Below, piece after piece: positions 9,321 to 21,890 of a DNA stretch of 64,000 nt. Under the pieces are notes generated by a model that saw only the letters and a program-made list of their open reading frames with translations, was not told the origin of the DNA and searched no databases. A program made the translations under genes and the position numbers. This DNA is from Acetobacter garciniae (GTDB lineage Bacteria; Pseudomonadota; Alphaproteobacteria; Acetobacterales; Acetobacteraceae): assembly GCF_017377735.1 (NCBI RefSeq), contig NZ_JAFVMH010000002.1, forward strand, positions 620,001 through 684,000, given 5' to 3'. Positions within the stretch are counted from its first letter, which is position 1, and every line of letters starts with the position of its first letter.

Positions 9321-11774
9321 ATGTTGACGCCCTTCATCCCCCGCTATCGTAATTTCTATAAGGTCCGATTCCCTACACGCCGCCAGGCTGGCGGAAAAAG
9401 CCTGCTGTTGACGACGGCCCTTGCGGGACTTGTGCTGCCGAATATCGCATCTGCCGAATCCACTGCCAGCGCCCCCCATCGTCACGCCGATGCAACGGTG
9501 GGGCATGTCGAGGCGAAGCCGAGCAGGAAAGCTGAGGCTCTGCGCCCCGTGAAGGCAGCAGCGGGCGAGGATATCCTGGTGTCGGTCGCGCGGCGGGCGC
9601 ACGGCACGATGATTTCAGTGGGCGAGGCGCAGATCCAGCGCGCAGTCCCCGGCACCAACCCCCTGAAGGTTCTTGGTCAGGCTCCCGGCGTCATGTTTCA
9701 GTCGGCGGACCCACAGGGGCTCGATGTCTGGTCGACGCAAATCTACATGCATGGGTTCATGCAAAACCAGATCAGCACCACCTTGGATGACGTGCCGTTG
9801 GGTGAGTTGACCTATCGTAACTATAACGGCCTGAACCCCATCCAGGCGATCTCTTCGGAGAACGTCCAGCGTGTTGACGTCTCGACCGGCGCAGGCGCTG
9901 AGTCTGTAGCCAGCACGAACAATCTCGGCGGATCGCTGGAATATCAATCGTCCTCGCCCAAGGATAAAGTCGGCGGTCAGGTTGTCCAGACGTTCGGAAG
10001 CTACGACCTGTTCCATACCTTCATTCGCGCCGATTCGGGGAAGCTGAACGAAAGCGGCACGAAGTTCTTTGTGTCCTACATGCGAAACGATACCCAGAAA
10101 TGGAAGGGTGGCGGCAACCAGTTCTCGCAGCAGGTCAATGCCAAGCTCGTTCAGCCAGTCGGGGAAGAGAGCAAGATCACGGCCTATTTTGACTGGTCCG
10201 ATCTGCATGAATATCTGTACCAGGACTATTCGCTCGATATCATGAATAATGGCGGATATAATATCGACAATTACTATAATGGCCGCTATAGTGGGTATGT
10301 AAACGCCTATAATGCAGCGCTTGGCCACTATCCAGCGAATTTTTCAGGTATTTCAGATAAGGCAGACGCCGCCTATTACGATGGTGCCGCCAATATCAAC
10401 GACTATCTTGGTTACCTGCAGGGTGACTTCAAGATCACCGATCGGCTGCGCTGGAAGACGACGGTCTACGGCCACGGCCAGACAAATGCGCTGACATGGA
10501 CAAATCCGTTCTATGCATCACCAACCGGTTCGCCCATGTTCGAACAGGTGAAGCAGCCTTCGATTCAGCGCTTTGGTATCCTGTCCGCAGCTCATTACGA
10601 TATTGCGCATAACCATATCGAAGCCGGGGTGTGGTACGAGAATAACCAGTTCAATTCGACAATGTACGGCTATGCGGAGCCTGCTCTGGGGCAGGGCGCG
10701 CCCCTGAACGCCGTAGACAGCTTCCATACGCGCGATGCCTTCATGCAGCTTTTCGGCCAGCATATCAGCACGAATACGTTTACGGCCTATGCGCAGGACA
10801 CCTACAATATCATGCCGAACCTGGCATTGCATTTCGGGTTCAAATCGCTTCTGAACACGTCCAATGCCGGTAATGGCTATTATAACAACGCGTATTATGG
10901 CGATGGGGAGATGATGCACGGGTCGCTGACCACGTTCCGCGCCTTTCTGCCGCATATCAGCGGGGACTGGCACTTCCTGAAGCATCACGAGCTTTATTTT
11001 GATATCGCGGAAAACGTTCACGCCTATCCGCAGGCGCAGTTCAAGACGGCGGCGTCCCCTTATGCCCAGACGGAGGCTTCTTATCTTGCCTCATCCGCAA
11101 GCCTGAAGCCGGAGAGCGACTGGGCCTATGCGATCGGGTATCGTTACAGTTCTCGTATTTTTGATGCATCAGTTCATGCTTATCGCATAAACTTCTTTAA
11201 TCGCCTGCAGCAGATTACGACCGGCAATATTGTAAACCCGGTTGCGACAGTGATGAATGTTGGAAACATCACGACCAACGGTGTCGATGCGGCCATCACC
11301 CTGCGCCCCGTCAATGGTTTGTCCTGGACAAACAGCATCAGTTACAACCACAGTACATATGACAATAATCTGAACAGCCAGGGCGTGACCTATCACACCA
11401 AAGGGCAGCAGGTCGTAGCGTATCCCCGTATCATGTACAAAACCAGCGCCATATATGATTACGGCCCGATGGAAGCGACGATTGACGCGTCATGGACGTC
11501 CCAGCGTAATCTCAGCTACACAGGGGATGCGAAAGTGCCGTCCTACTGGATGAGCAATTTTGGCCTACGGTATCGCTTCGGCAATCTGGGCAAGTATGCG
11601 CACGCTCTCAATCGTGTGGAGAATCTTGATCTTTCCTTTAATATTTACAACCTGAATGGCGCCAAATATGTATCGACCATGGGGGAAAATGGTTTCCCCT
11701 TAAGCGGAGATTTCCAGTCCTTTCTGGTGGGTGCCCCTCGTATGTTCTTCGGGTCGATCAAGGTCAGTTTCTGA
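9321..11774 (+). CDS. TonB-dependent outer-membrane receptor
   Basis: 817 residues. A signal peptide occupies about residues 25-45 (SLLLTTALAGLVLPNIASA). A TonB-box-like EDILVSVA follows at about 85, then the plug domain (VLGQAPGVMFQSADPQG, TTLDDVPLGELTYRNYNGL, STGAGAESVASTNNLGGSL) and a long Tyr/Asn-rich beta-barrel that ends in Phe (FFGSIKVSF). It imports a ligand across the outer membrane using TonB energy. It leads the rightward operon that continues with a PotDBCA-type importer, so it probably feeds the same substrate to the periplasm. No exbB/exbD/tonB genes are nearby. Confidence 0.92.
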   Translation: MLTPFIPRYRNFYKVRFPTRRQAGGKSLLLTTALAGLVLPNIASAESTASAPHRHADATVGHVEAKPSRKAEALRPVKAAAGEDILVSVARRAHGTMISVGEAQIQRAVPGTNPLKVLGQAPGVMFQSADPQGLDVWSTQIYMHGFMQNQISTTLDDVPLGELTYRNYNGLNPIQAISSENVQRVDVSTGAGAESVASTNNLGGSLEYQSSSPKDKVGGQVVQTFGSYDLFHTFIRADSGKLNESGTKFFVSYMRNDTQKWKGGGNQFSQQVNAKLVQPVGEESKITAYFDWSDLHEYLYQDYSLDIMNNGGYNIDNYYNGRYSGYVNAYNAALGHYPANFSGISDKADAAYYDGAANINDYLGYLQGDFKITDRLRWKTTVYGHGQTNALTWTNPFYASPTGSPMFEQVKQPSIQRFGILSAAHYDIAHNHIEAGVWYENNQFNSTMYGYAEPALGQGAPLNAVDSFHTRDAFMQLFGQHISTNTFTAYAQDTYNIMPNLALHFGFKSLLNTSNAGNGYYNNAYYGDGEMMHGSLTTFRAFLPHISGDWHFLKHHELYFDIAENVHAYPQAQFKTAASPYAQTEASYLASSASLKPESDWAYAIGYRYSSRIFDASVHAYRINFFNRLQQITTGNIVNPVATVMNVGNITTNGVDAAITLRPVNGLSWTNSISYNHSTYDNNLNSQGVTYHTKGQQVVAYPRIMYKTSAIYDYGPMEATIDASWTSQRNLSYTGDAKVPSYWMSNFGLRYRFGNLGKYAHALNRVENLDLSFNIYNLNGAKYVSTMGENGFPLSGDFQSFLVGAPRMFFGSIKVSF

Positions 11775-11789
11775 ATTGACAGCCCACAT

Positions 11790-11815
11790 CCTTGCGGTCA
11801 CTCCATGCCGCAAGG
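11790..11815 (+). terminator. hairpin after the TonB-receptor gene
   Basis: A perfect 8-bp stem (CCTTGCGG and CCGCAAGG) with a 10-nt loop lies 15 bp after the receptor stop codon. It has no T-run, so it is more likely a processing or attenuation hairpin than a full terminator. It could lower expression of the importer genes relative to the receptor. It also makes an apparent TTG start at 11792, inside the stem, unlikely for the next gene. Confidence 0.5.
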
Positions 11816-11848
11816 GGCACAATCTCCATCGTGTGGAAACAAAGACTT

Positions 11849-12979
11849 ATGGCATTGTCCTGTAAACGAGGCCGACAGCACAATCGGAGGCAAGACAAAA
11901 AAATATCTGGCATAACGTCTTGTTTCCCGGAGAAAATTTCTGCCAGCAGGACGGTGCACAGGATTGCGTTCGTCCTTGCGGGGGTAGTGAGCCTGTCCGT
12001 CACGCAGGCTTCGGCAGAAACACTTGCCGTAAGTACGTGGGGAGGGAGCTTCCGTGATCTTATCGATCAGACCATTGCGAAAAAGTTCACGGAGGAAACC
12101 GGCGTAAAAGTTGAATATGTGACAGGTGGGACGATTGATCGTCTCAATGACGCACGACTGGACGAAGGTGAGCCATCGAGCGATGTTACTTTCACCACAT
12201 CGCATATTGGCTGGCTTTATGCCGATAATGGCCTGTTCGAAAAGCTGGATTTCTCAAAAATCCCCAATGCCCAACATCTGGTCGCGCAGGCCAGGATCAG
12301 TCCTTATCATATAGGGGTATGGGCCTATGTTTATTCCATAGCCTATCGGCCCTCCATGATTCCTCCCGGCTTTCATTTCGAGAGTTGGAACGATCTCTGG
12401 TCGCCAAAACTCAAGGGGCTGGTCTCAGCCCCTGATTTTGATCCGTCACATTTAATCGCCGTGGCCTGCAAGCTTGAAGGAGTCAATATTGCGGACTGGA
12501 CGCGGGCAACGCCCAAATTGTTGGCCTTACTGCCCAATTTCAAGGCCTTTTATACCAACGATGCTAACGGAGAGCAGATGCTTTCAACCGGCGAAAGCCC
12601 GGTTGCAATCATGCTCTCCATGAACGCCTATCACATGAAGGCGGAAGGAGCGTCGATCGAGTTCGTGATCCCCAAAGAGGGGGCTGTACTGGGCGTTGAT
12701 ACCATTGCCATCAATAAAGGATCCCGGAAGGTCGATCTCGCGTACAAGTTTATCAATATAGCACTCGATGTTTTGGTGCAGACAAAAATTACGGAAATAA
12801 AAAAGAGCAGCCCTGTTGTCGAAGGCGTTGTCTTGCCGGAAGAACTGAAATCCGTACCCGGTATCTTTACCTCTCCACAAGAATGGCTGCAGCAAACCAT
12901 CATCGTTCCAGACAGATTACGTGCTCGTGATCTCGCCGAATGGCGGGCGTGGTTTGCCGAGAATATGATCTCCCGATGA
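11849..12979 (+). CDS. periplasmic solute-binding protein, PotD-like
   Basis: About 376 residues from this ATG. A clean secretion signal (IAFVLAGVVSLSVTQASA, then ETLAV) begins at residue 36. A GTG at 11954 just before it may be the true start. The mature protein begins LAVSTWGGSFRDLIDQTIAK, with SSDVTFTTSHIGW and NDLWSPKLKGLV, as in the polyamine/opine/phosphonate binding-protein family. No lipobox is seen. It is the first gene of the ABC importer set and 75 bp after the TonB receptor. Ligand identity is not deducible by eye. Confidence 0.88.
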   Translation: MALSCKRGRQHNRRQDKKISGITSCFPEKISASRTVHRIAFVLAGVVSLSVTQASAETLAVSTWGGSFRDLIDQTIAKKFTEETGVKVEYVTGGTIDRLNDARLDEGEPSSDVTFTTSHIGWLYADNGLFEKLDFSKIPNAQHLVAQARISPYHIGVWAYVYSIAYRPSMIPPGFHFESWNDLWSPKLKGLVSAPDFDPSHLIAVACKLEGVNIADWTRATPKLLALLPNFKAFYTNDANGEQMLSTGESPVAIMLSMNAYHMKAEGASIEFVIPKEGAVLGVDTIAINKGSRKVDLAYKFINIALDVLVQTKITEIKKSSPVVEGVVLPEELKSVPGIFTSPQEWLQQTIIVPDRLRARDLAEWRAWFAENMISR

Positions 12980-13046
12980 GTTCCGCTGGCCCGTCCTGTC
13001 CGGCCGCCTCATGTGGTGGTCTGTCGATCTTTTTGTGGTGAAAACT

Positions 13047-13898
13047 ATGTCAAAGCGCCCTTTTCTCGGATTGTTCGCCAGTCCGGCCACCCTTGTCGCA
13101 ATTAGTATTGTCGCTGCGCTGCTGGCAATTTTTCAATACAGTCTGCGCGCGTATGTTCCCGGTTCCCTGCGGCCTGGCGGTTTTACGATCGAAAATTTTG
13201 CGGTTCTGTGGAAACCCATGTTCCGCAAGGCCTTCCTGACAACGTTTCTCCTGTGCTTCTGGACCGCACTTCTAACCCTCCTTGCGGGTTTCCCGCTTGC
13301 CTATGCCATGGTTCGGAGCAAATCCTCGCTTGTGCGCGGGGGCATTCTTATTACATCCTTGACCCCGATGTTTCTGGGCGAGGTTATCAGAACTTATTCA
13401 TGGATGATCGTCCTTGGTAAGCAGGGCATCATCAATGTATGTCTCTTGCGGCTGGGGGTGATTTCAGAACCGATCAGCCTCATGTTTACAACAACGGGGG
13501 TGGTGATCGCGCTCGTTCATTTTACCCTGCCCATAGTGATTATCATGATCGCCGCTGCTCTTTCCCACATTGACTGGAATCTTGAAAAAGCGGCTGCCTC
13601 TTTGGGTGCTGGACGTGTCAGGATCTTTTTTACCGTCACGCTGCCGCTTGCGACACCGGGTCTGGTTGCGGCGACGTCCACGGCTTTTTCCTGGACTTTT
13701 TCTGCGTTTGCAACGCCACAGATGATTGGCGGGGGCAAAGTTCAGACAATCTCCACTCTTGTTTACCAAGTCGGGTTTAGCTCCTTCAACATGCCGTTGG
13801 CTGCGTCATTATCGTTGGCGGGTTTGCTGTTCACAATTGCAGTTTTGACTCTTTTCAACGTGGGGATGCGTAAAATCGAAAAGCTTGGAGACTGCTGA
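13047..13898 (+). CDS. ABC transporter permease, PotB-like
   Basis: 283 residues from MSKRPFLG; an upstream ATG at 13011 would add 12 residues. Six predicted membrane helices start with ATLVAISIVAALLAIFQYSL and end near FTIAVLTLFNVGM. The EAA loop is present at about residues 175-200 (EKAAASLGAGRVRIFFTVTLPLATPG), the contact site for the ATPase. It forms the inner-membrane channel together with the PotC-like permease, whose gene follows directly. Confidence 0.92.
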   Translation: MSKRPFLGLFASPATLVAISIVAALLAIFQYSLRAYVPGSLRPGGFTIENFAVLWKPMFRKAFLTTFLLCFWTALLTLLAGFPLAYAMVRSKSSLVRGGILITSLTPMFLGEVIRTYSWMIVLGKQGIINVCLLRLGVISEPISLMFTTTGVVIALVHFTLPIVIIMIAAALSHIDWNLEKAAASLGAGRVRIFFTVTLPLATPGLVAATSTAFSWTFSAFATPQMIGGGKVQTISTLVYQVGFSSFNMPLAASLSLAGLLFTIAVLTLFNVGMRKIEKLGDC

Positions 13899-13899
13899 A

Positions 13900-14709
13900 A
13901 TGAAGAAAGCTTTTTCAGATCACCTTCTGGACTGGAGCGGACGGCTGCTGGTTCTGCTTATTCTGATCTTTATTGCTCTGCCGTTTATTGTGGTTTTCAT
14001 CGTTTCGTTCAATGACAGTTCAGTTGTAGAATTCCCGCCCAAACACTGGTCGCTTCGATGGTATTTTAACGCCTTCTCTTATGAGGATTTCGTAAAAGGG
14101 CTCAGGAACTCGCTTATGGTCGCGGCTGTGGGGTCGGCAATTTCGCTTATTGTGGGAGCAATGTTCGCTTTTGTCTTTAATCGCTACGAATTTTCCATAC
14201 GCAGGCCTCTCCATGCCATTCTCATGTCTCCCCTGATTGTACCGAATTTTACAATCGGCCTCGGAGCACTTCTTTTGGCCAAAGGAATATTTGTACCACG
14301 CTCCTTCGGGTTGCTGGTCCTTGTTCATGTAATGGTGACACTTCCTTTTGTCGTGCGGGGTGTGTCCGTATCGCTGCAGAACTTCAATCAGGCTTATGAG
14401 CGCGCCGCAGAAAGCCTGGGGGCGTCACCGTGGTATATTCTGATAACTTTAACCATGCCTCTCCTGCTGCCTGGCCTTATTTCCGGCTGGCTGTTTGCCG
14501 CAGTGTTGTCCTTTAACGAATTTTCAGCGTCTCTCTTTGTTGCCAATCTGCGGAATCAGACCCTCCCAATTGCAATGTATAACTATGTTCGGGAATATGC
14601 AGACCCGACATTAGCTGCGCTGGCTGTTCTTTACGTCGTCACGAGTGCGGCAGTCTTGACTGTGCTCCATGTCTTCTTTCGTCTCGAAAAGGTGCTAAAT
14701 GTCGAGTGA
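13900..14709 (+). CDS. ABC transporter permease, PotC-like
   Basis: 269 residues from MKKAFSDH; a start at 13885 overlapping the previous gene is also possible. It has six membrane helices, starting LLVLLILIFIALPFIVVFIV. The EAA loop is AAESLGASPWYILITLTMPLLLPG at about residue 170. FNDSSVVEFPPKHWSLRWY after the first helix is typical of PotC proteins. It pairs with the PotB-like permease and overlaps the ATPase gene by 11 bp, so translation is coupled. Confidence 0.92.
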   Translation: MKKAFSDHLLDWSGRLLVLLILIFIALPFIVVFIVSFNDSSVVEFPPKHWSLRWYFNAFSYEDFVKGLRNSLMVAAVGSAISLIVGAMFAFVFNRYEFSIRRPLHAILMSPLIVPNFTIGLGALLLAKGIFVPRSFGLLVLVHVMVTLPFVVRGVSVSLQNFNQAYERAAESLGASPWYILITLTMPLLLPGLISGWLFAAVLSFNEFSASLFVANLRNQTLPIAMYNYVREYADPTLAALAVLYVVTSAAVLTVLHVFFRLEKVLNVE

Positions 14710-15817
14710 CCATCAATCTTCAGAAAATGTCAGTGCGCGTCCGGCGGTCCAGATTGATGGTGTCACCAAATCATTTGGAAACACCCCCGCCCTTGAACCA
14801 TGCTGGATGAAGATCAAACGGGGAGAATTCCTGACTCTCCTCGGACCATCGGGGTGCGGTAAGACGACCCTGCTCAATCTTATCGCTGGGTTTCTGGAGG
14901 CCGATAACGGTGAGCTTTTCCTTGGGGAGGATCTCGTTACCCAGGTGCCCCCGCATAAACGCGAAATCGGGATTGTTTTTCAGAATTATGCGTTATTCCC
15001 GCATAAGACTGTCGCACAGAATGTGGAATATGGACTGCGTACACGCGGCGTTCCCAAAGAAGAATCCCGCGCACGGGTAAAAGAGGCGCTTTCTCTTGTA
15101 AAGCTTGAGAATTTCGCGGACAGAAAGCCCCGGCAAATGTCGGGAGGACAGCAGCAGCGGGTCGCTCTTGCGCGCGCGCTTGTCATACGTCCCCGCGTCT
15201 TGCTGCTTGATGAGCCCTTTTCCGCCCTGGATCGCAACCTGAGAGTCTCGATGCAAATCGAGCTCAAGGAAATCCAGACGAAACTGGGCCTGACGACAAT
15301 ATTTGTCACGCATGATCAGAATGAAGCCCTTTCAATGTCTGATCGAATTGCGGTAATGTCGCGCGGCCGCGTCCGCCATGTTGGCTCACCCCAGGAAATT
15401 TATGAGCATCCGAAAGACCTCTTTGTCGCGACATTTGTCGGGGATACAAATCTTTTCCGTGCACGAATTGAGTCTTCTGAAGGTCGAACACGGCTTGATA
15501 TAGGTGGTCGGAAAGTCGAGATTTCCTCGGAACAGAAAGAACCCCGGGATTTGCCCTCCGCCGTGATTGTTGCTGCCCGTCCCGAACAGTGCAGCCTGAC
15601 ATCCGTCGAAAGCCCGGATGCCATTCCAGCGACGGTTGCTGTAGTTGTTTACCAAGGCAGCTATGTCGAACTATATCTGGAGTGCGAAGCCGCAGTGCAT
15701 GGAAGGATCATGATGCGCGACGTCTCTAAGTCATTCTTTCATATTGGGGATAAAGTAGGCATCCGCCTTGCTACGAAAGGTCTTAATATTTTTGGTTCTG
15801 AGCAGGAGATCGGCTAG
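14699..15817 (+). CDS. ABC transporter ATP-binding protein, PotA-like
   Basis: 372 residues. All nucleotide-binding motifs are intact: Walker A GPSGCGKTTLL, Q-loop FQNYALFPH, signature MSGGQQQRVALARAL, Walker B LLLDEPFSALD and switch His in FVTHDQNEAL. A TOBE-type C-terminal domain spans about residues 240-370. It powers the PotBC-like channel. It ends the rightward operon; IS debris begins about 90 bp later. Compare the catalytically dead paralogue at 20395-21513. Confidence 0.93.
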   Translation: MSSDHQSSENVSARPAVQIDGVTKSFGNTPALEPCWMKIKRGEFLTLLGPSGCGKTTLLNLIAGFLEADNGELFLGEDLVTQVPPHKREIGIVFQNYALFPHKTVAQNVEYGLRTRGVPKEESRARVKEALSLVKLENFADRKPRQMSGGQQQRVALARALVIRPRVLLLDEPFSALDRNLRVSMQIELKEIQTKLGLTTIFVTHDQNEALSMSDRIAVMSRGRVRHVGSPQEIYEHPKDLFVATFVGDTNLFRARIESSEGRTRLDIGGRKVEISSEQKEPRDLPSAVIVAARPEQCSLTSVESPDAIPATVAVVVYQGSYVELYLECEAAVHGRIMMRDVSKSFFHIGDKVGIRLATKGLNIFGSEQEIG

Positions 15818-16119: not shown

Positions 16120-16390
16120 TTGATGGGGAAGCCCAATTTCAGTGATGAGTTCAAGCGTGATGCGGTGGCGCAGATTACCGAGCAGGGATATCCGGTAGCG
16201 GAAGTTTCGCTGCGGCTCGGGGTCAGCACACATTCGCTGTATGCGTGGAAGCGGCAATTCGCGAAGGTGGCATCAGGCGATACCGGCAAGGATGCCGAGA
16301 TCCGGCAACTGAAGCGCGAACTGGTCCGGGTGACCGAGGAGCGCGACATCCTAAAAAAGTCACCGCGTATTTCGCCAGGGATGCAAAGTG
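16120..16390 (+). pseudogene. IS3-family transposase OrfA
   Basis: Helix-turn-helix OrfA: MGKPNFSDEFKRDAVAQITE, then SLRLGVSTHSLYAWKRQF and a leucine-zipper-like RQLKRELVRVTEERDILKK. After ILKK the frame from the ATG leaves the family sequence and runs to a stop at 16563. One frame over, the expected ending VTAYFARDAK plus stop is present (about 16352-16390). The change happens at a run of six A (CTAAAAAAG). It is either an indel in this relic or a slippage site. Confidence 0.8.
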
Positions 16391-16876
16391 AGATACGCCT
16401 TCATTGCCGAGCATCGCGATCATTTTGGAATTCGGGCGATATGCCGCTGTCTGGCTGTGCAGCCCAGTGGCTATTATGCCTGGCGGAAGGAGCCGCTGAG
16501 CCGACGGGCTTGCGAGGATGCCCGACAGACCACGTTGATCTGTCAGGCCTGGAACGACAGTAGCAGGTTTTATGGCTACCGTAAGCTGCACGATGATCTG
16601 CTCGATCAGGGCGAGACCTGCTGTCCGAACCGCGTGGCACGGCTGACAAAACTGGCGGGTATCAAGGCACAGATTGGCTACAGGCGGCGGCCAGGCAGCC
16701 ATAGTGGCAGGCCATCCCTCGTAATCGACAACACGCTGGCCCGGCAGTTTGATGTCGAGGCGCCCGACAGGGTATGGGTCACAGACATCACCTACATCCG
16801 CACCATGGAAGGGTTTGCCTACCTTGCAGTCGTGCTCGACCTCAATTCGCGTCGTGTGGTGGGCTGGTCGATGCAG
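16388..16876 (+). pseudogene. IS3-family transposase OrfB, C-terminally truncated
   Basis: It starts at GTG overlapping the orfA end: VRYAFIAEHRDHFGIRAICR, then YYAWRKEPLSRR, RFYGYRKLHDDLL and the first catalytic Asp in VWVTDITYI. About 163 residues remain. The segment with the second Asp and the catalytic Glu of the DDE core is lost at the junction with the integrase fragment near 16876. Any longer ORF in this frame (to 17095) is antisense read-through of the integrase gene. Confidence 0.85.
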
Positions 16877-17334
16877 TTCTCTTCGAGGGTGACGGGTAGC
16901 TTGTCGATGCCATTCATGAGCCTGGCCATGCCAGCGTTAATGGTCGCCAGAAAATCCGTCAGGCGCTTGGCCTGCTCATATTTATCAAACAGGAACTCGG
17001 CACGCTCGGAGGCACGCTCGGAGGCATGCTCCGCTTTCTCGCGCTCTGTATCAAGCTCCATGACCCTGTCGGTGCCCTTGATGATGTCCTCGTAGACAGT
17101 GATCAACTTTTTGAGGTCATCAGGGGAGGCGTCGTCATACATGGCGCTGGCTTTGCTGAAGAACTGTCCGGTTCTGGCATAAAGCGCCGCCGCCCGTTCT
17201 CGTGCAACCCGTTTGCTGTCGGTTTGCAGGGAGAGTGAAATTTCCGTGCGTCCAAACAAAGGGCGAAGCGCGTGGGGAATGGTGCGTCGGAAGTGGTAGT
17301 GTGAGCCGAGAAGGCGGAGCATGTCTTTTCCCAT
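16877..17334 (-). pseudogene. tyrosine integrase, N-terminal fragment
   Basis: About 152 residues remain. The N-terminus MLRLLGSHYHFRRTIPHALR, followed by PLFGRTEISLSLQTDSKRVA, is the SHYHFRR-type N-terminal arm (DUF6538-like) of Acetobacteraceae/alphaproteobacterial phage-type integrases. A coiled-coil stretch (DTEREKAEHASERASERAEF) follows. The core-binding and catalytic (R...HxxR...Y) domains are absent, replaced by the IS3 fragment. The gene begins about 75 bp from the tRNA-Leu 3' end on the same strand, which fits an integrase that used this tRNA as its attachment site. Confidence 0.85.
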
Positions 17335-17586: not shown

Positions 17587-18282
17587 TTATCCGGCGCGTA
17601 GCAGAAGCGGGCCGTGGTAACGCAGCCAGGCTTCGGCCTGCTGCCTGTAGGGTGTCAGGCTGGCGACCTGTTTCCAGAATTGTGGGCCGTGGTTCATGTG
17701 CACCAGGTGGCTCAGCTCGTGCGCGATCAGGTAATGGCGCACCGGGTGGGGGGCCATGACCAGACGCCAGGACAGCATGATGCGGCCCGTGCTGGAGCAG
17801 CTTCCCCAACGGCTGCTCGTGTCGCGGATATCCAGCCGGGTGGGGCGCAGCTTTGCTGCCTGCGCCATCTCCCGCACTTCCTCCCCCAGCACGCGGGCTG
17901 CATGGGCGCGCAGGAAATCCGTTACGCGGCGGCTGATGAAACTGGCATCTCCGCTGACGACAAGCTGGTCTTTTTCAATCCATGCACCGCCGCGGCGTGT
18001 CGGGTCGTGGGTGATGCGGTGGGGCGTGCCTTCAATGGGGATGATACTGCCATCGGTAAAGGACGGGGTTTTTTCAAGACGTTGCAGGCGCGATGCGATC
18101 CATCCGCCATGCTGGCGCACAAAGGCATGGGCATGGGCGGGCGGGCATTTGGGGGGCAGGGTGACGGTAACGGAATTTGCCCGTGGGGCAATGCGCAGGG
18201 CCAGCCGCCGCGCGCGGGGTGAAACACGCCATTCGACGTGAACCTTGCCGAAACCTTCTACAGTTATTTCATCGGGTAACAC
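17587..18282 (-). CDS. YgjP/SprT-like metallopeptidase (DUF45)
   Basis: 231 residues. The M48-like zinc motif HELSHLVHMNHGPQFW (HExxH with a downstream His) lies at about 190-205. SSRWGSCSSTGRIMLSWRL in front is the typical DUF45/YgjP signature. No signal peptide or membrane helix is seen, so it is probably cytosolic. It starts at GTG overlapping the YcgN-like gene by 14 bp, and is the last gene of a five-gene leftward operon. The substrate is unknown. Confidence 0.9.
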   Translation of the reverse strand: MLPDEITVEGFGKVHVEWRVSPRARRLALRIAPRANSVTVTLPPKCPPAHAHAFVRQHGGWIASRLQRLEKTPSFTDGSIIPIEGTPHRITHDPTRRGGAWIEKDQLVVSGDASFISRRVTDFLRAHAARVLGEEVREMAQAAKLRPTRLDIRDTSSRWGSCSSTGRIMLSWRLVMAPHPVRHYLIAHELSHLVHMNHGPQFWKQVASLTPYRQQAEAWLRYHGPLLLRAG

Positions 18283-18799
18283 CTGCGCGCACTCCCGCTG
18301 GGGTGGGCCCGGGCCTGGCGGCTTCGGGCGTTGTGTCCGGCGTTGCGGGTTCGCCAGGCCAGGTGACGATGTAATCTTCCAAAGCGCCTGCGCGGCGTTC
18401 GCTGATACAGCGACCGGCGGCCGATGCGCCAGAGGTGATGACGGTCTCGGGCGTTCCGCTCAGCAACGGGTGCCAGTCGGGCAGGGACTGCCCGTTGGCC
18501 AGCCGACGATAGGCGCAGTCAGGTGGCAGCCAGTCCAGTTCGGGGATCATTTCCGCGGTCAGGGTCACGCAGTCCTGCACCTTGCGCAGCCGGTTCGGAT
18601 AATCCGTGCATTGGCAGGTCCGCACGTCCAGCAACCGGCACGCCACGGACGTATAGTGCAGTTCCTCCGTGTCGTCATCGCGGAGCTTGTGCAGGCAGCA
18701 CCGTCCGCAGCCATCGCACAGCGATTCCCACTGCGTGCGTGTCATGTCCGCCAGGGGCGTGGTTTCCCAGAAGGGGCGGGGGGCTGGGGGAGGATTCAT
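18269..18799 (-). CDS. YcgN/UPF0260 cysteine-cluster protein
   Basis: 176 residues. The Cys-rich pattern begins WESLCDGCGRCCLHKLRDDD, continues VACRLLDVRTCQCTDYPNRL and later DCVTLTAEMIPELDWLPPDC, all typical of the UPF0260 (YcgN) family, a YkgJ-type zinc- or iron-binding cluster. Function is unknown. The start codon overlaps the permease-like gene by 4 bp and the stop overlaps the metallopeptidase gene. The last 30 residues (PEAARPGPTPAGVRAG) look like an extra tail. Confidence 0.9.
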   Translation of the reverse strand: MNPPPAPRPFWETTPLADMTRTQWESLCDGCGRCCLHKLRDDDTEELHYTSVACRLLDVRTCQCTDYPNRLRKVQDCVTLTAEMIPELDWLPPDCAYRRLANGQSLPDWHPLLSGTPETVITSGASAAGRCISERRAGALEDYIVTWPGEPATPDTTPEAARPGPTPAGVRAGVTR

Positions 18800-19221
18800 T
18801 GCAGGGCTCCGCAGGCCAGGGCCAGGACAAGGCTGGTCAGAAAAGGTTTTTTAAGCAGCGGCCACCATAGCAAGCGCAGGCGCATGGGGCGCGACGTGGC
18901 GCCAAGTTCCCGCGCAGTCGCGGTCCAGTTGTCCTGCACGCTGCGCAAGGGTAGCACAAGGGGCAGGCTCAGCAGCGGGGCCAGCATCATACCTTGCAGC
19001 ACGGGAACGCCAGGACCACGCACGCCCAGCGGTAGCAGGACTGCGCCTGCCGTTGCGGGAATGACCGTCAGCAACGCTAGCGTATAGGCAGCCCCACTCA
19101 GGCGTGTTGCAATGACCAGGGCCGTAACAAGACACGCCACCCCAAGTCCGATCGCGGCCATGACCAGTCCCGAGGCCAGAAGCGGGTAAGGGGGTGGGAC
19201 AGCGCCCATCAGCGGGATCAC
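18796..19221 (-). CDS. half-length ABC-permease-like membrane protein
   Basis: 141 residues with about four predicted helices: LASGLVMAAIGLGVACLVTA, LALLTVIPATAGAVLLPLGV, VLQGMMLAPLLSLPLVLPL and PFLTSLVLALACGAL. An EAA-like loop, ARELGATSRPMRLRLLWWPL, precedes the last helix as in PotB/PotC permeases. A normal permease has six helices and about 270 residues; the C-terminal part is absent here without any frameshift. It overlaps by 4 bp both the binding-protein gene and ycgN, so it is co-translated. It may form a reduced or repurposed complex with the neighbouring ABC-like proteins. Confidence 0.7.
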   Translation of the reverse strand: MIPLMGAVPPPYPLLASGLVMAAIGLGVACLVTALVIATRLSGAAYTLALLTVIPATAGAVLLPLGVRGPGVPVLQGMMLAPLLSLPLVLPLRSVQDNWTATARELGATSRPMRLRLLWWPLLKKPFLTSLVLALACGALQ

Positions 19222-20297
19222 GCGTGGTCGATCCAGTGGGCGAAACGTTCCGCGATGGGGGCCAGGTTGCGGCTCCAGAACAGGTCGTCAACCGGGATGG
19301 CGGGCGGCAGGCGCGCCAGCCTGCCGCCGGAAGCATCGATATCCTGCATGGATGGCAATGACGGCCACGCATTGGCGAAGGCCTGCTGCTGGGCGGGTTG
19401 TTCCAGCCAGGATGCAAGGGCCAGGTTGGCGCTATCGCCTGCGGCACTTCGGGGCACGCCCCAGCCGTATTGAACAAGCAGGCGTTGGTTCCAGTTCAGG
19501 CTGAAGCGCTGGCGGTCCGCCTCCTTCGCGCCCAGAATTTCGCCCGTGGGCACGAAGCCGGTCAGCGCGCCGCCGGAGGTGAGGATACGCGCAGCCTCCT
19601 CCGGGGTGGACCACCAGATAAGGTACGGGCGGATCTGCTCCAGTTTCAAGAAGGCGCGGTTCTGGCCATCGGGCGTGGCCAGAACGCGGTACACCACATC
19701 GGCGGGAACACCGTCTGCCAGCAGGGCGATTTCAAGCGTCGTGCGTGGGTCGCGCCGTAAGCTGCGGCGGCCGGGATGGCGCGCGACATCCCAGAAATCC
19801 GTCCAGCTCGGGGGGGCATCAAAACGGGCGCGGTCCCAGGCCATGGCATAGTCGATCGCAGCGGACATGGGGCCGCATGCATTGGCGGAGGTATCGCCCT
19901 CGTCCCGGGCAAGCAGGCCCAGCCCGCAGCAGATCTGGAGCATGCTGCCTTCCATCATCACGGCGGCCCAGTGGCCGGCCGCGTGCTGTTCCTGCTGTTG
20001 CAGGCTTTCGGTCGTGCCGTCCCAGCCATGGGGGGTGACCGTGCGATGTGTCAGGCGTTCATAGGGGGTGAACAGCACCCGGCGCTGGATGTCCGTGATC
20101 TTGCCCGCAAAGGTCAGGACATTCAGGCGGGGTGGGGTGGGGGCATGGCCGCGCTTGCGGGGGGCGGCTTGTGGCTTTCCCGCTTCCGCCACCGCAGGCA
20201 GCAGCGCACCCAGCCCGGCCAGCAGGAGCGTGCGGCGCGCCAGCGGGGAAACGACCGGGGGTGAAAGGGAGGACGCGCGGTGTAATCCGGCAGGCAC
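19218..20297 (-). CDS. PotD-like extracellular solute-binding protein
   Basis: 359 residues. The N-terminus has a twin-arginine-like signal (SPLARRTLLLAGLGALLPA, then VAEAGK). The body resembles the PotD family: NVLTFAGKITDIQRRVLFTP, later WTDFWDVARHPGRRSLRRDP, YLIWWSTPEEAARIL and VPRSAAGDSANLALASWLEQ. It probably binds a small ligand in the periplasm. The start is a GTG and may lie a little further in. It is followed with a 4-bp overlap by the half-length permease and preceded by the dead ATPase-like gene. Confidence 0.8.
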   Translation of the reverse strand: MPAGLHRASSLSPPVVSPLARRTLLLAGLGALLPAVAEAGKPQAAPRKRGHAPTPPRLNVLTFAGKITDIQRRVLFTPYERLTHRTVTPHGWDGTTESLQQQEQHAAGHWAAVMMEGSMLQICCGLGLLARDEGDTSANACGPMSAAIDYAMAWDRARFDAPPSWTDFWDVARHPGRRSLRRDPRTTLEIALLADGVPADVVYRVLATPDGQNRAFLKLEQIRPYLIWWSTPEEAARILTSGGALTGFVPTGEILGAKEADRQRFSLNWNQRLLVQYGWGVPRSAAGDSANLALASWLEQPAQQQAFANAWPSLPSMQDIDASGGRLARLPPAIPVDDLFWSRNLAPIAERFAHWIDHA

Positions 20298-20394
20298 AGG
20301 CGCTGCTTTTGGGCGAGCCTTACGAAGAAAAGGAAGGGGAAGCAGGGGAAACCTCGCGCGCGTCTGTCTATGGCCTGGGATGCCGGGCGGCAGT

Positions 20395-21513
20395 TTAGCC
20401 TATTTTTTGATCCATCGGAAAGGCAATGGCGTTCTGGGCCTGCCACGCCAGTAATCCCTCCCGCCCGGGTGCCAGATCCCGCCCGGCATGAACCGGCGGG
20501 CGGCGGGCGATTATTTCGGTTCCATCACGCGCGCGCAGCCGCATGAGAACGCTCTGGCCAAGATGGTGGGCGCTGACAAGCGTGCAGGCAATGTCGCCGG
20601 GTTCCGGGGGTTCGCCCCCGCCCTGGCGCATGAACATTACGGAAAGCCGGTCAGGCGGAATGCAGATGCTGGCCAGGTCATCGGCATGCAGGCCCGGTGC
20701 CGCCTGCGCCTGCACCGTCTCGCCCGAAGGCAGGCGCAGGGTGGCGAGATCGTCTTCGCAGTCCAGCACCTTGCCGGTCAGCACATTGGCATCCCCCATA
20801 GCTACGGCCACACCGCGGCTGGCGGGGCGGTTCAGCAGGATGGGGGCCTGGGCGAGTTGCAGCAGCACGCCGTTTTCCATGATACCGATCCGGTCCGCGG
20901 CCATCAGGGCTTCGGGGCGCTGGCGTGTCAGCAGCAGAAGGCTCAGCCCCATGGCGTGGCGCAGCCGGTCAAGCATGGCGAGCATGCGGTCCTTTGCCGT
21001 CTGCTTCATGGTATCGAAAGGCTGCATCAGCACAACGACCGCCGGCATGCCCACAAGGGCGCGGGCGAGCCCTGCGCGAAAAACCTGTTCTGCCGACAGG
21101 TCGCGCGGGTATCGGGCGCGCACGCCGTCCAGCCCGGTCAGGGCTAGGACCTCGCTCGCCCTGCGCTGCATTTCATTCGCACCCAGGGTGCGTGCGGCCC
21201 GCAGGGGAAAGAGAATATTGTCCATAACCGACAGATGCGCGAAGAGCGGCGCATGCGCCCCCACGGAGGCCACGCCCCGCTGGCCCGGCCTGTGCGCGCT
21301 GACATCCATCCCGTCGATGCGCATGGCGCCCTGGCATGTCGCCCGCCCGGTCAGGGCGGCTGTCAGGCTGGGCATGTCGTCTTCGTCCGGGCCGATTCCC
21401 AGCAGGGCCACGCAGTCCTGCCTGCGCAAAATCAGGTCCAGCGGCGGTGTTCCCGCCCGGAAAACGAAATTGTGCAGTGCCAGGGCAGGGGGCGAGCCAT
21501 GCGTAAGCTGCAT
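20395..21513 (-). CDS. ABC ATPase-like protein lacking all catalytic motifs (PotA-like pseudo-ATPase)
   Basis: 372 residues, the length and layout of PotA with an NBD and a C-terminal TOBE domain (VLTGKVLDCEDDLATLRLPS onward). Every nucleotide motif is changed. Walker A is LLGIGPDEDDMPSLTAAL with no GKT/S. The Q-loop Gln is absent (VGAHAPLFAHL). The signature reads LSAEQVFRAGLARAL. Walker B is VVVLMQPFDTM in place of LLLDEP. The switch His is Arg (LLLTRQRPEAL). The frame is intact with core-like GC, so it is unlikely to be a recent pseudogene. It leads the operon with the binding protein and half permease. Confidence 0.8.
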   Translation of the reverse strand: MQLTHGSPPALALHNFVFRAGTPPLDLILRRQDCVALLGIGPDEDDMPSLTAALTGRATCQGAMRIDGMDVSAHRPGQRGVASVGAHAPLFAHLSVMDNILFPLRAARTLGANEMQRRASEVLALTGLDGVRARYPRDLSAEQVFRAGLARALVGMPAVVVLMQPFDTMKQTAKDRMLAMLDRLRHAMGLSLLLLTRQRPEALMAADRIGIMENGVLLQLAQAPILLNRPASRGVAVAMGDANVLTGKVLDCEDDLATLRLPSGETVQAQAAPGLHADDLASICIPPDRLSVMFMRQGGGEPPEPGDIACTLVSAHHLGQSVLMRLRARDGTEIIARRPPVHAGRDLAPGREGLLAWQAQNAIAFPMDQKIG

Positions 21514-21587: not shown

Positions 21588-21890
21588 ATGTCTTACGACA
21601 AAATCAAGGAAGTCAAAGCCGCTGGCGAAGCGGCGACCGATACGGCGCGTGAAGAGCTGGAGGCCGTCAAGGCCCATCTCGAACGCCTGATCACCCAGCA
21701 CATGGTGCCTGCCCTGGGCAGGGCGGGGGACAAAGCCGGCAGCCTGACCGAGCAGGCAGTTGCCAATGCGCGCGAACTGGCGGATCATACGCGCCAAGAT
21801 CTCGCAAAGCGAACGCGGGGCCAGACGTCCTGGCTGTCTATTGCCATTTCCGGGGTGGTGGGCTTTATCCTGGGGCGGTTGTCTCGCTGA
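21588..21890 (+). CDS. YqjD/ElaB-like membrane-anchored protein (DUF883)
   Basis: 100 residues starting MSYDKIKEVKAAGEAATDTA. A long amphipathic helical region (REELEAVKAHLERLI, then TEQAVANARELADHTRQDL) is followed by a single C-terminal helix (WLSIAISGVVGFILGRLSR) with the GxxxG-like end of ElaB/YqjD proteins. In E. coli these tail-anchored proteins associate with ribosomes in stationary phase. It is the first gene of a pair with the YqjE-like gene 40 bp downstream, divergent from the ABC-like operon. Confidence 0.85.
   Translation: MSYDKIKEVKAAGEAATDTAREELEAVKAHLERLITQHMVPALGRAGDKAGSLTEQAVANARELADHTRQDLAKRTRGQTSWLSIAISGVVGFILGRLSR

Follow-up and report, generated by a model that had tools for sequence, protein, structure and literature searches.

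A conserved ABC importer operon that appears to have lost its motor lies in a 64,000-nucleotide stretch of the Acetobacter garciniae genome (contig NZ_JAFVMH010000002.1, positions 620,001 to 684,000 of the forward strand; hereafter the window). It encodes a PotA-like ATPase, a PotD-like substrate-binding protein (SBP) and a half-length permease, together called the trio. The preferred explanation, to which we give slightly less than an even chance, is that the dead ATPase and the half-permease serve the SBP, which is predicted to be exported, as a static dock in the inner membrane. On the evolutionary scale, the balance is even for a scenario in which a whole importer was converted once, in ancestors of the acetic acid bacteria, to an ATP-free platform for a periplasmic protein and was later stripped to the SBP in Bombella, which is associated with bees, and in related genera with small genomes, with transitional stages still alive. 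Several of the genes carry a spermidine/putrescine transporter annotation in this family, whose members include industrial and insect-associated bacteria, and such a function is unlikely. If true, the scenario would amount to a natural progression, with the channel of an importer lost first, then the motor, then all but the binding protein, under continuing selection, and would allow tests of which importer component is able to assume a new role without ATP.

An active Pot-type importer requires a Walker A lysine, a Walker B glutamate, an LSGGQ signature, a Q-loop glutamine and an H-loop histidine, none of which is found in the window's ATPase. Aligned with an intact PotA from another operon in the window, it reads GIGPDEDDMPSL at the Walker A position, VGAH at the Q-loop, LSAEQ at the signature, VVVLMQP at Walker B, where the Asp-Glu pair is missing, and LTRQ at the H-loop. 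The fold of nucleotide-binding domain (NBD) and TOBE domain that such an importer also requires is present. Pfam detects TOBE_2 and, weakly, ABC_tran (27.8 bits against a cut-off of 25), AlphaFold2 models a complete NBD and TOBE fold (pLDDT 90.5), and the best Foldseek match of this model is E. coli PotA (8y5f_A, TM 0.81). Alignment, Pfam and model together bear out the initial annotation of this DNA, which described a 372-residue protein that keeps the PotA layout and TOBE domain yet has lost all catalytic motifs.

The same losses run through a clade of 55 sequences, comprising the window's ATPase, those of 33 of the 35 Acetobacter-group loci (two with broken frames were excluded) and 21 from other genera. 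Neither the Walker A Lys nor the Walker B Glu occurs in any of the 55, while both are present in 12/12 active relatives. The H-loop His persists in two dead-clade sequences and the Q-loop Gln in three, against all 12 active relatives in each case, and the second Gly of the signature in two. In 51 sequences none of Lys, Glu, His and Gln is left, and the other four retain one or both of Gln and His. The Walker B Asp is still present in 23/55.

The dead ATPase is found in 35/37 sampled genomes of the window's genus (missing in G015 and G025). A family search matched 51/299 genomes at E ≤ 7.1e-96, spanning 17 of 102 genera, with the next match at 2.4e-82. At least one ATPase from each of these genera was read, along with that of genome G061 (genus g26), and all are dead, which brings the carriers to 18 genera of Acetobacteraceae. 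Carriage is not universal within these genera, as G185 (g70) fails to reach 1e-85. At that threshold, searches of the order and the class matched 84/200 and 1/289 genomes, respectively, the latter being the window's own. Named carriers include Lichenicoccus and Novacetimonas by their ATPase, and Gluconobacter, Kozakia, Komagataeibacter and Gluconacetobacter are members by SBP similarity. In an unrooted ATPase tree of 51 sequences, 36 dead rows form one side of a branch with 100/100 support, 12 active rows lie on another, and a third group consists of three rows, which come from g73 and g104. With the dead sequences on one branch, repeated independent loss of the motifs is not favoured.

The trio is under purifying constraint. 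Sixteen species pairs, not independent of one another, could be used for every gene, and on these simple Nei-Gojobori counts give median dN/dS values of 0.113 for the ATPase, 0.084 for the SBP, 0.133 for the permease, 0.057 for YcgN and 0.096 for YgjP, the last two encoded by genes behind the trio. Constraint on the trio is therefore about that on YgjP and somewhat weaker than that on YcgN. The ATPase frame is intact in 33/35 Acetobacter-group loci; the broken frames come from two drafts, A. papayae JCM 25143 and A. okinawensis JCM 25146 (loci L051 and L062), and another A. okinawensis assembly carries an intact copy (L014/L095). Stops, frameshifts and relaxed selection, the marks of pseudogenes, do not characterize the trio, and recent decay is ruled out by the dN/dS values and intact frames. 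That the trio is a relic in slow decay, or a set of pseudogenes, is barely credible: the stepwise losses leading from active through dead to SBP-only operons, and the two broken draft loci, would suit such a history, but a single dead branch, the predominance of intact frames and trio medians of 0.08-0.13 oppose it. The absence of stops and frameshifts reported initially holds for the ATPase of the window and of 33 of these loci. The dN/dS analysis proposed at that stage yielded the above trio medians, and neither of the outcomes named then as fatal to repurposing, normal motifs or decay in close relatives, was seen, the relatives having the same dead motifs in intact frames. In G036, a metagenome-assembled genome that is possibly a mixed bin, two differing copies of the whole operon stand on two contigs (L041 and L065).

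The permease is reduced as well. An active Pot-type importer requires a pair of full permeases, as subunits or as domains, whose core is complete, and the operon has a single 141-residue gene; the EAA coupling loop, another requirement, is retained. The AlphaFold2 model (pLDDT 90.5) has long helices at residues 12-39, 42-66, 72-93 (broken) and 111-140, the EAA-like loop containing a shorter one (99-105), and aligns to PotC 48-199 and MetI 6-160 (VIA alignment). The first ~47 residues of PotC and everything past its residue 199 have no counterpart, so that the last core helix is absent. The loop pattern TAxELGA....R..LLWxPLL is retained across short permeases, and together with the model this family conservation upholds the initial description of about four helices and an EAA-like loop. 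A short permease occurs in 17 of the 18 genera with dead motifs, the g34 locus ending before the permease; with such recurrence, the pattern is not a product of chance. The protein has no Pfam or NCBIfam match, and a protein search with it returned two proteins only, one being itself. A single-sequence search matched 21/249 family genomes and therefore misses diverged copies. The half-permease may derive from PotB or from PotC. Of 52 half-permeases, 36 have their better score against a PotB profile and 16 against a PotC profile, although many scores are near or below zero bits and the PotC profile set includes a 46-residue fragment (L199); the clearest PotB-favouring cases are L178 (27.6 vs 6.0 bits) and L173 (38.5 vs 31.4). 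In G116, the SBP and half-permease genes are separated by a 401-residue ORF on the other strand that resembles 5-aminolevulinate synthase (L185 5296-6501), with all parts kept.

Because there is no catalytic site, the channel is shortened and only one permease gene is present, pumping by the trio is unlikely on sequence grounds. Compared with E. coli PotABCD (PDB 8y5f), the trio shares the ATPase fold, the TOBE domain, the permease region described above and a PotD-like SBP, but its ATPase is devoid of catalytic residues, one permease gene replaces two, and the start and end of PotC are unmatched. Degenerate-site ABC exporters also conserve a loss of catalytic residues under selection, but they keep one working site, whereas here no complete site is possible and the permease is cut down (PMC7756269). 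Such exporters are defined by at least one complete site per dimer; considering the operon-encoded ATPase, the operon's only one, both Walker A and signature are gone.

Import could in principle continue if another gene, such as that at 14699-15817, encoded an intact PotA-type ATPase that supplied the ATP energy. That this gene lies in the same window, and that other ABC ATPases score in relatives (by score, their motifs unread), lends the idea some substance. A mixed dimer with a partner devoid of Walker A and, mostly, of the signature would nevertheless have no complete site, the permease is without its last core helix, and in none of 35 Acetobacter-group loci (6-8.5 kb) did a query with the window's PotA find another ATPase next to the trio. 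Base composition also separates the two operons within the window, at a GC content of 0.51 for the canonical one and 0.65-0.68 for the trio. A borrowed motor is thus very improbable.

Motifs are intact in ten loci of the nearest active relatives. The fully read active operon, L200, encodes an ATPase, an SBP, a PotB-like protein of 415 residues and a PotC-like protein of 268. L200 and its kin share with the trio the gene order ATPase-SBP-permease and have the closest active ATPase and SBP sequences, but differ in their intact motifs and two full permeases and yield no ycgN or ygjP match in the loci read. A partly dead group (L201, L204 and L205) keeps the Walker A Lys and the Walker B Glu in 3/3 sequences and the signature's second Gly and the H-loop His in 0/3. 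In L201 the ATPase adjoins a DUF883-like gene, as in the dead loci, and an SBP match is present; its short permease, seen by eye with no profile match, ends about one helix past an EAA-like loop. The L201 group would represent an intermediate stage. The likely order of loss would begin with truncation of the permease, accompanied by disappearance of the signature and H-loop, followed by loss of Walker A and B, after which small genomes would drop everything but the SBP. Proteins of 648-652 residues (P0051-P0056) combine ABC_tran, TOBE_2 and PF00528 in a single chain and are Pot-type ATPase-permease fusions.

The final stage is represented by four genera with genomes of ~2 Mb, namely Bombella (g56), g85 (which holds Acetobacteraceae bacterium ESL0709), g125 and g94. 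Their 12 genomes have no dead ATPase, the best matches (E 9e-34 to 1e-30) covering the NBD only. A genome-wide search with a half-permease profile finds nothing in nine of them and gives E 0.002-0.006 inside 321-residue frames in three, as compared to 1e-25 to 1e-34 in four control genomes. The SBP is kept in 12/12, with ycgN and ygjP directly behind it, and its dN/dS is 0.14-0.31 (within-genus pairs with dS < 1.5, upstream letters included). In these four genera the SBP outlives its transporter. Six other genomes lacking the dead ATPase (G015, G025, G089, G091, G126 and G176) gave no SBP match.

An active importer also requires a PotD-type binding protein, and the trio retains one. It matches SBP_bac_8 in Pfam, with 4i1d and 3rpw among its PDB relatives, and has an N-terminal stretch that by eye resembles a signal, in agreement with the initial reading of a PotD-like protein with a signal. 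That the SBP survives by itself in some genera points to it as the working part, with the ATPase and permease as an accessory dock. A related view is that the SBP by itself has a new periplasmic job, as a carrier, chaperone or enzyme-like protein, while the ATPase and permease are no longer complexed with it and persist for separate, lesser reasons. The 12 SBP-only genomes fit this account, as does the lowest dN/dS of the trio. The ATPase and permease, however, have dN/dS values of 0.11-0.13 and conserve the surfaces on which they would meet, which suggests continued contact, and the account is rather unlikely.

Conservation of these surfaces speaks for a dock. The stretch following the Q-loop, which in MalK and PotA receives the coupling helix of the permease, forms a groove that the dead sequences have conserved (Leu 98%, Phe 91%, His 89%, Asn 98%; unweighted). 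TOBE conservation is 0.59 in dead versus 0.57 in active sequences, while that of the NBD is 0.53 versus 0.74. Strong constraint and a preserved EAA loop, groove and TOBE domain suggest continued contact between permease and ATPase. Two half-permeases may still dock, by their EAA helices, on a dead-ATPase dimer held by TOBE, and this platform would hold or position the SBP at the membrane. A static dock of this kind, needing no energy and open to loss in reduced genomes, is the simplest reading that joins these observations.

Several points weigh against the dock. Docking of the half-permease on the dead ATPase would follow from single-chain models and conservation, and the groove, TOBE and NBD values come from an unweighted, Acetobacter-rich set. 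Foldseek gives the permease model no match at E ≤ 0.001, the best being PotC (E 0.095, probability 1.00). The SBP is itself eroded. Its N-lobe has 7-17 positions deleted in 11/37 dead-clade rows, all from genera outside the Acetobacter group, and the arginine of an Asn-Gly-Arg motif is replaced by Glu in 26/37 and present in 2/37, as compared to 5/8 SBPs of active relatives, so that ligand binding is doubtful. The SBP-only genera show that the dock is dispensable there. The intermediate status of the L201 group depends on how the unrooted tree is rooted, as well as on a short permease recognized by eye. Finally, in G237 a member of the partly dead ATPase group adjoins a DUF883-like gene (L204 5137-6577) with no SBP or permease match, and this lone ATPase is therefore left unexplained by an SBP-centred reading. 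A trpG-like gene lies directly downstream of it.

The trio could instead constitute a transmembrane ligand sensor, in which the SBP binds a solute and the half-permease signals through its EAA helix to an ATP-free NBD/TOBE dimer and on to a cytoplasmic partner, possibly YcgN or YgjP. The conserved EAA loop, groove and TOBE domain would suit such a relay, as would the overlap of the operon with ycgN-ygjP. NspS is PotD-like, and sensors of the NspS-MbaA type have a partner of GGDEF/EAL type; by eye, no adjacent partner of this type is seen among the window's neighbours, no domain scan of the loci having been made. The NspS-MbaA system sets a precedent for a PotD-type SBP in a sensory role, although NspS partners with the c-di-GMP modulating protein MbaA (PMC9993111), and the SBP here with a dead ATPase and a half-permease or with no known partner. 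Genes for an SBP and a sensor that lie near each other do not always belong together (PMC11113362). Against a sensor, the SBP occurs without this ATPase or half-permease in four genera, so the relay would have to be dispensable in Bombella; the N-lobe is shortened in the rows noted above, and by eye the operon has no sensor-type gene. A sensor is consequently unlikely. The initial annotation's idea of repurposing is supported, given the same dead motifs in close relatives, intact frames and low dN/dS, but its suggestion of a ligand-sensing or assembly module did not gain support, with an ATPase-mediated sensor disfavoured by the four SBP-only genera.

The most constant partners of the trio are ycgN and ygjP. 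Both follow it in 20/20 other-genus loci that reach that far (the ygjP match of L187 is partial), and ycgN follows it in 33/35 Acetobacter-group loci, once at a gap of 3.4 kb from the half-permease (L053); L063 and L064 have no ycgN nearby. This constancy, extending to all 12 SBP-only loci, invites the idea that the trio belongs to a YcgN-YgjP pathway and anchors or delivers these cytoplasmic proteins, for instance for maturation or repair at the membrane. Yet the two genes are paired without an adjacent trio in g54, g90, g92 and g124 and lie on contigs other than the trio's in G019 and G030, making the idea quite improbable. Literature listings on YcgN/YgjP, NspS and GABA-binding SBPs gave no function for the trio, and among the titles listed for these bacteria no described dead importer was found. 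One report lists a polyamine ATPase without comment (PMC5112900).

Table 1. Features of the trio locus and of the canonical Pot-type operon, numbered from the first letter of the window.
Feature	Positions	Strand	Basis or remark
PotA-like ATPase without catalytic residues (NBD + TOBE), 372 aa	20395-21513	-	ORF list; Pfam ABC_tran + TOBE_2; motif comparison; AlphaFold2; Foldseek
PotD-like SBP (SBP_bac_8), N-terminal signal-like stretch, 359 aa	19218-20297	-	ORF list; Pfam; PDB relatives; signal read by eye
Half-length ABC permease, 141 aa, ~4 membrane helices + EAA-like coupling loop	18796-19221	-	ORF list; conserved family; AlphaFold2; VIA alignment
YcgN family cysteine-cluster protein	18269-18799	-	NCBIfam NF003501; near-constant neighbour 3' of half-permease gene
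YgjP-like putative metallopeptidase (PF01863)	17587-18282	-	Pfam; synteny
Small DUF883-like protein, divergent neighbour upstream of dead ATPase	21588-21890	+	
Canonical complete Pot-type operon: SBP, PotB-like, PotC-like, PotA-like with intact motifs	11792-15817	+	GC 0.511
Intact PotA of canonical operon	14699-15817		Reference for motif comparison

Within the operon (Table 1), the ORF list confirms the positions first given, all on the minus strand. Overlaps of 4 bp join the SBP to the permease gene and the permease gene to ycgN, as originally noted for three coupled genes, while ycgN and ygjP overlap by 14 bp and a gap of 97 bp separates the ATPase from the SBP. The GC content described as core-like is 0.65-0.68 for the trio against 0.618 for the whole window. 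The divergent small protein, which we take to be DUF883-like, has a counterpart adjoining the dead ATPase in 20/21 other-genus loci, the exception being L191.

The canonical Pot operon lies ~1.8 kb past ygjP on the opposite strand and, given its GC content compared with that of the window, was possibly acquired from elsewhere. The trio is not a recent duplicate of it, as ruled out by the difference in GC and by the position of the canonical PotA on the active side of the ATPase tree. A TonB-dependent-receptor-like gene precedes this operon (together 9321-15817, plus strand). Between the operon and ygjP, at 16120-17334, lie IS3-like transposase ORFs together with part of an integrase-like ORF, named from their translations.

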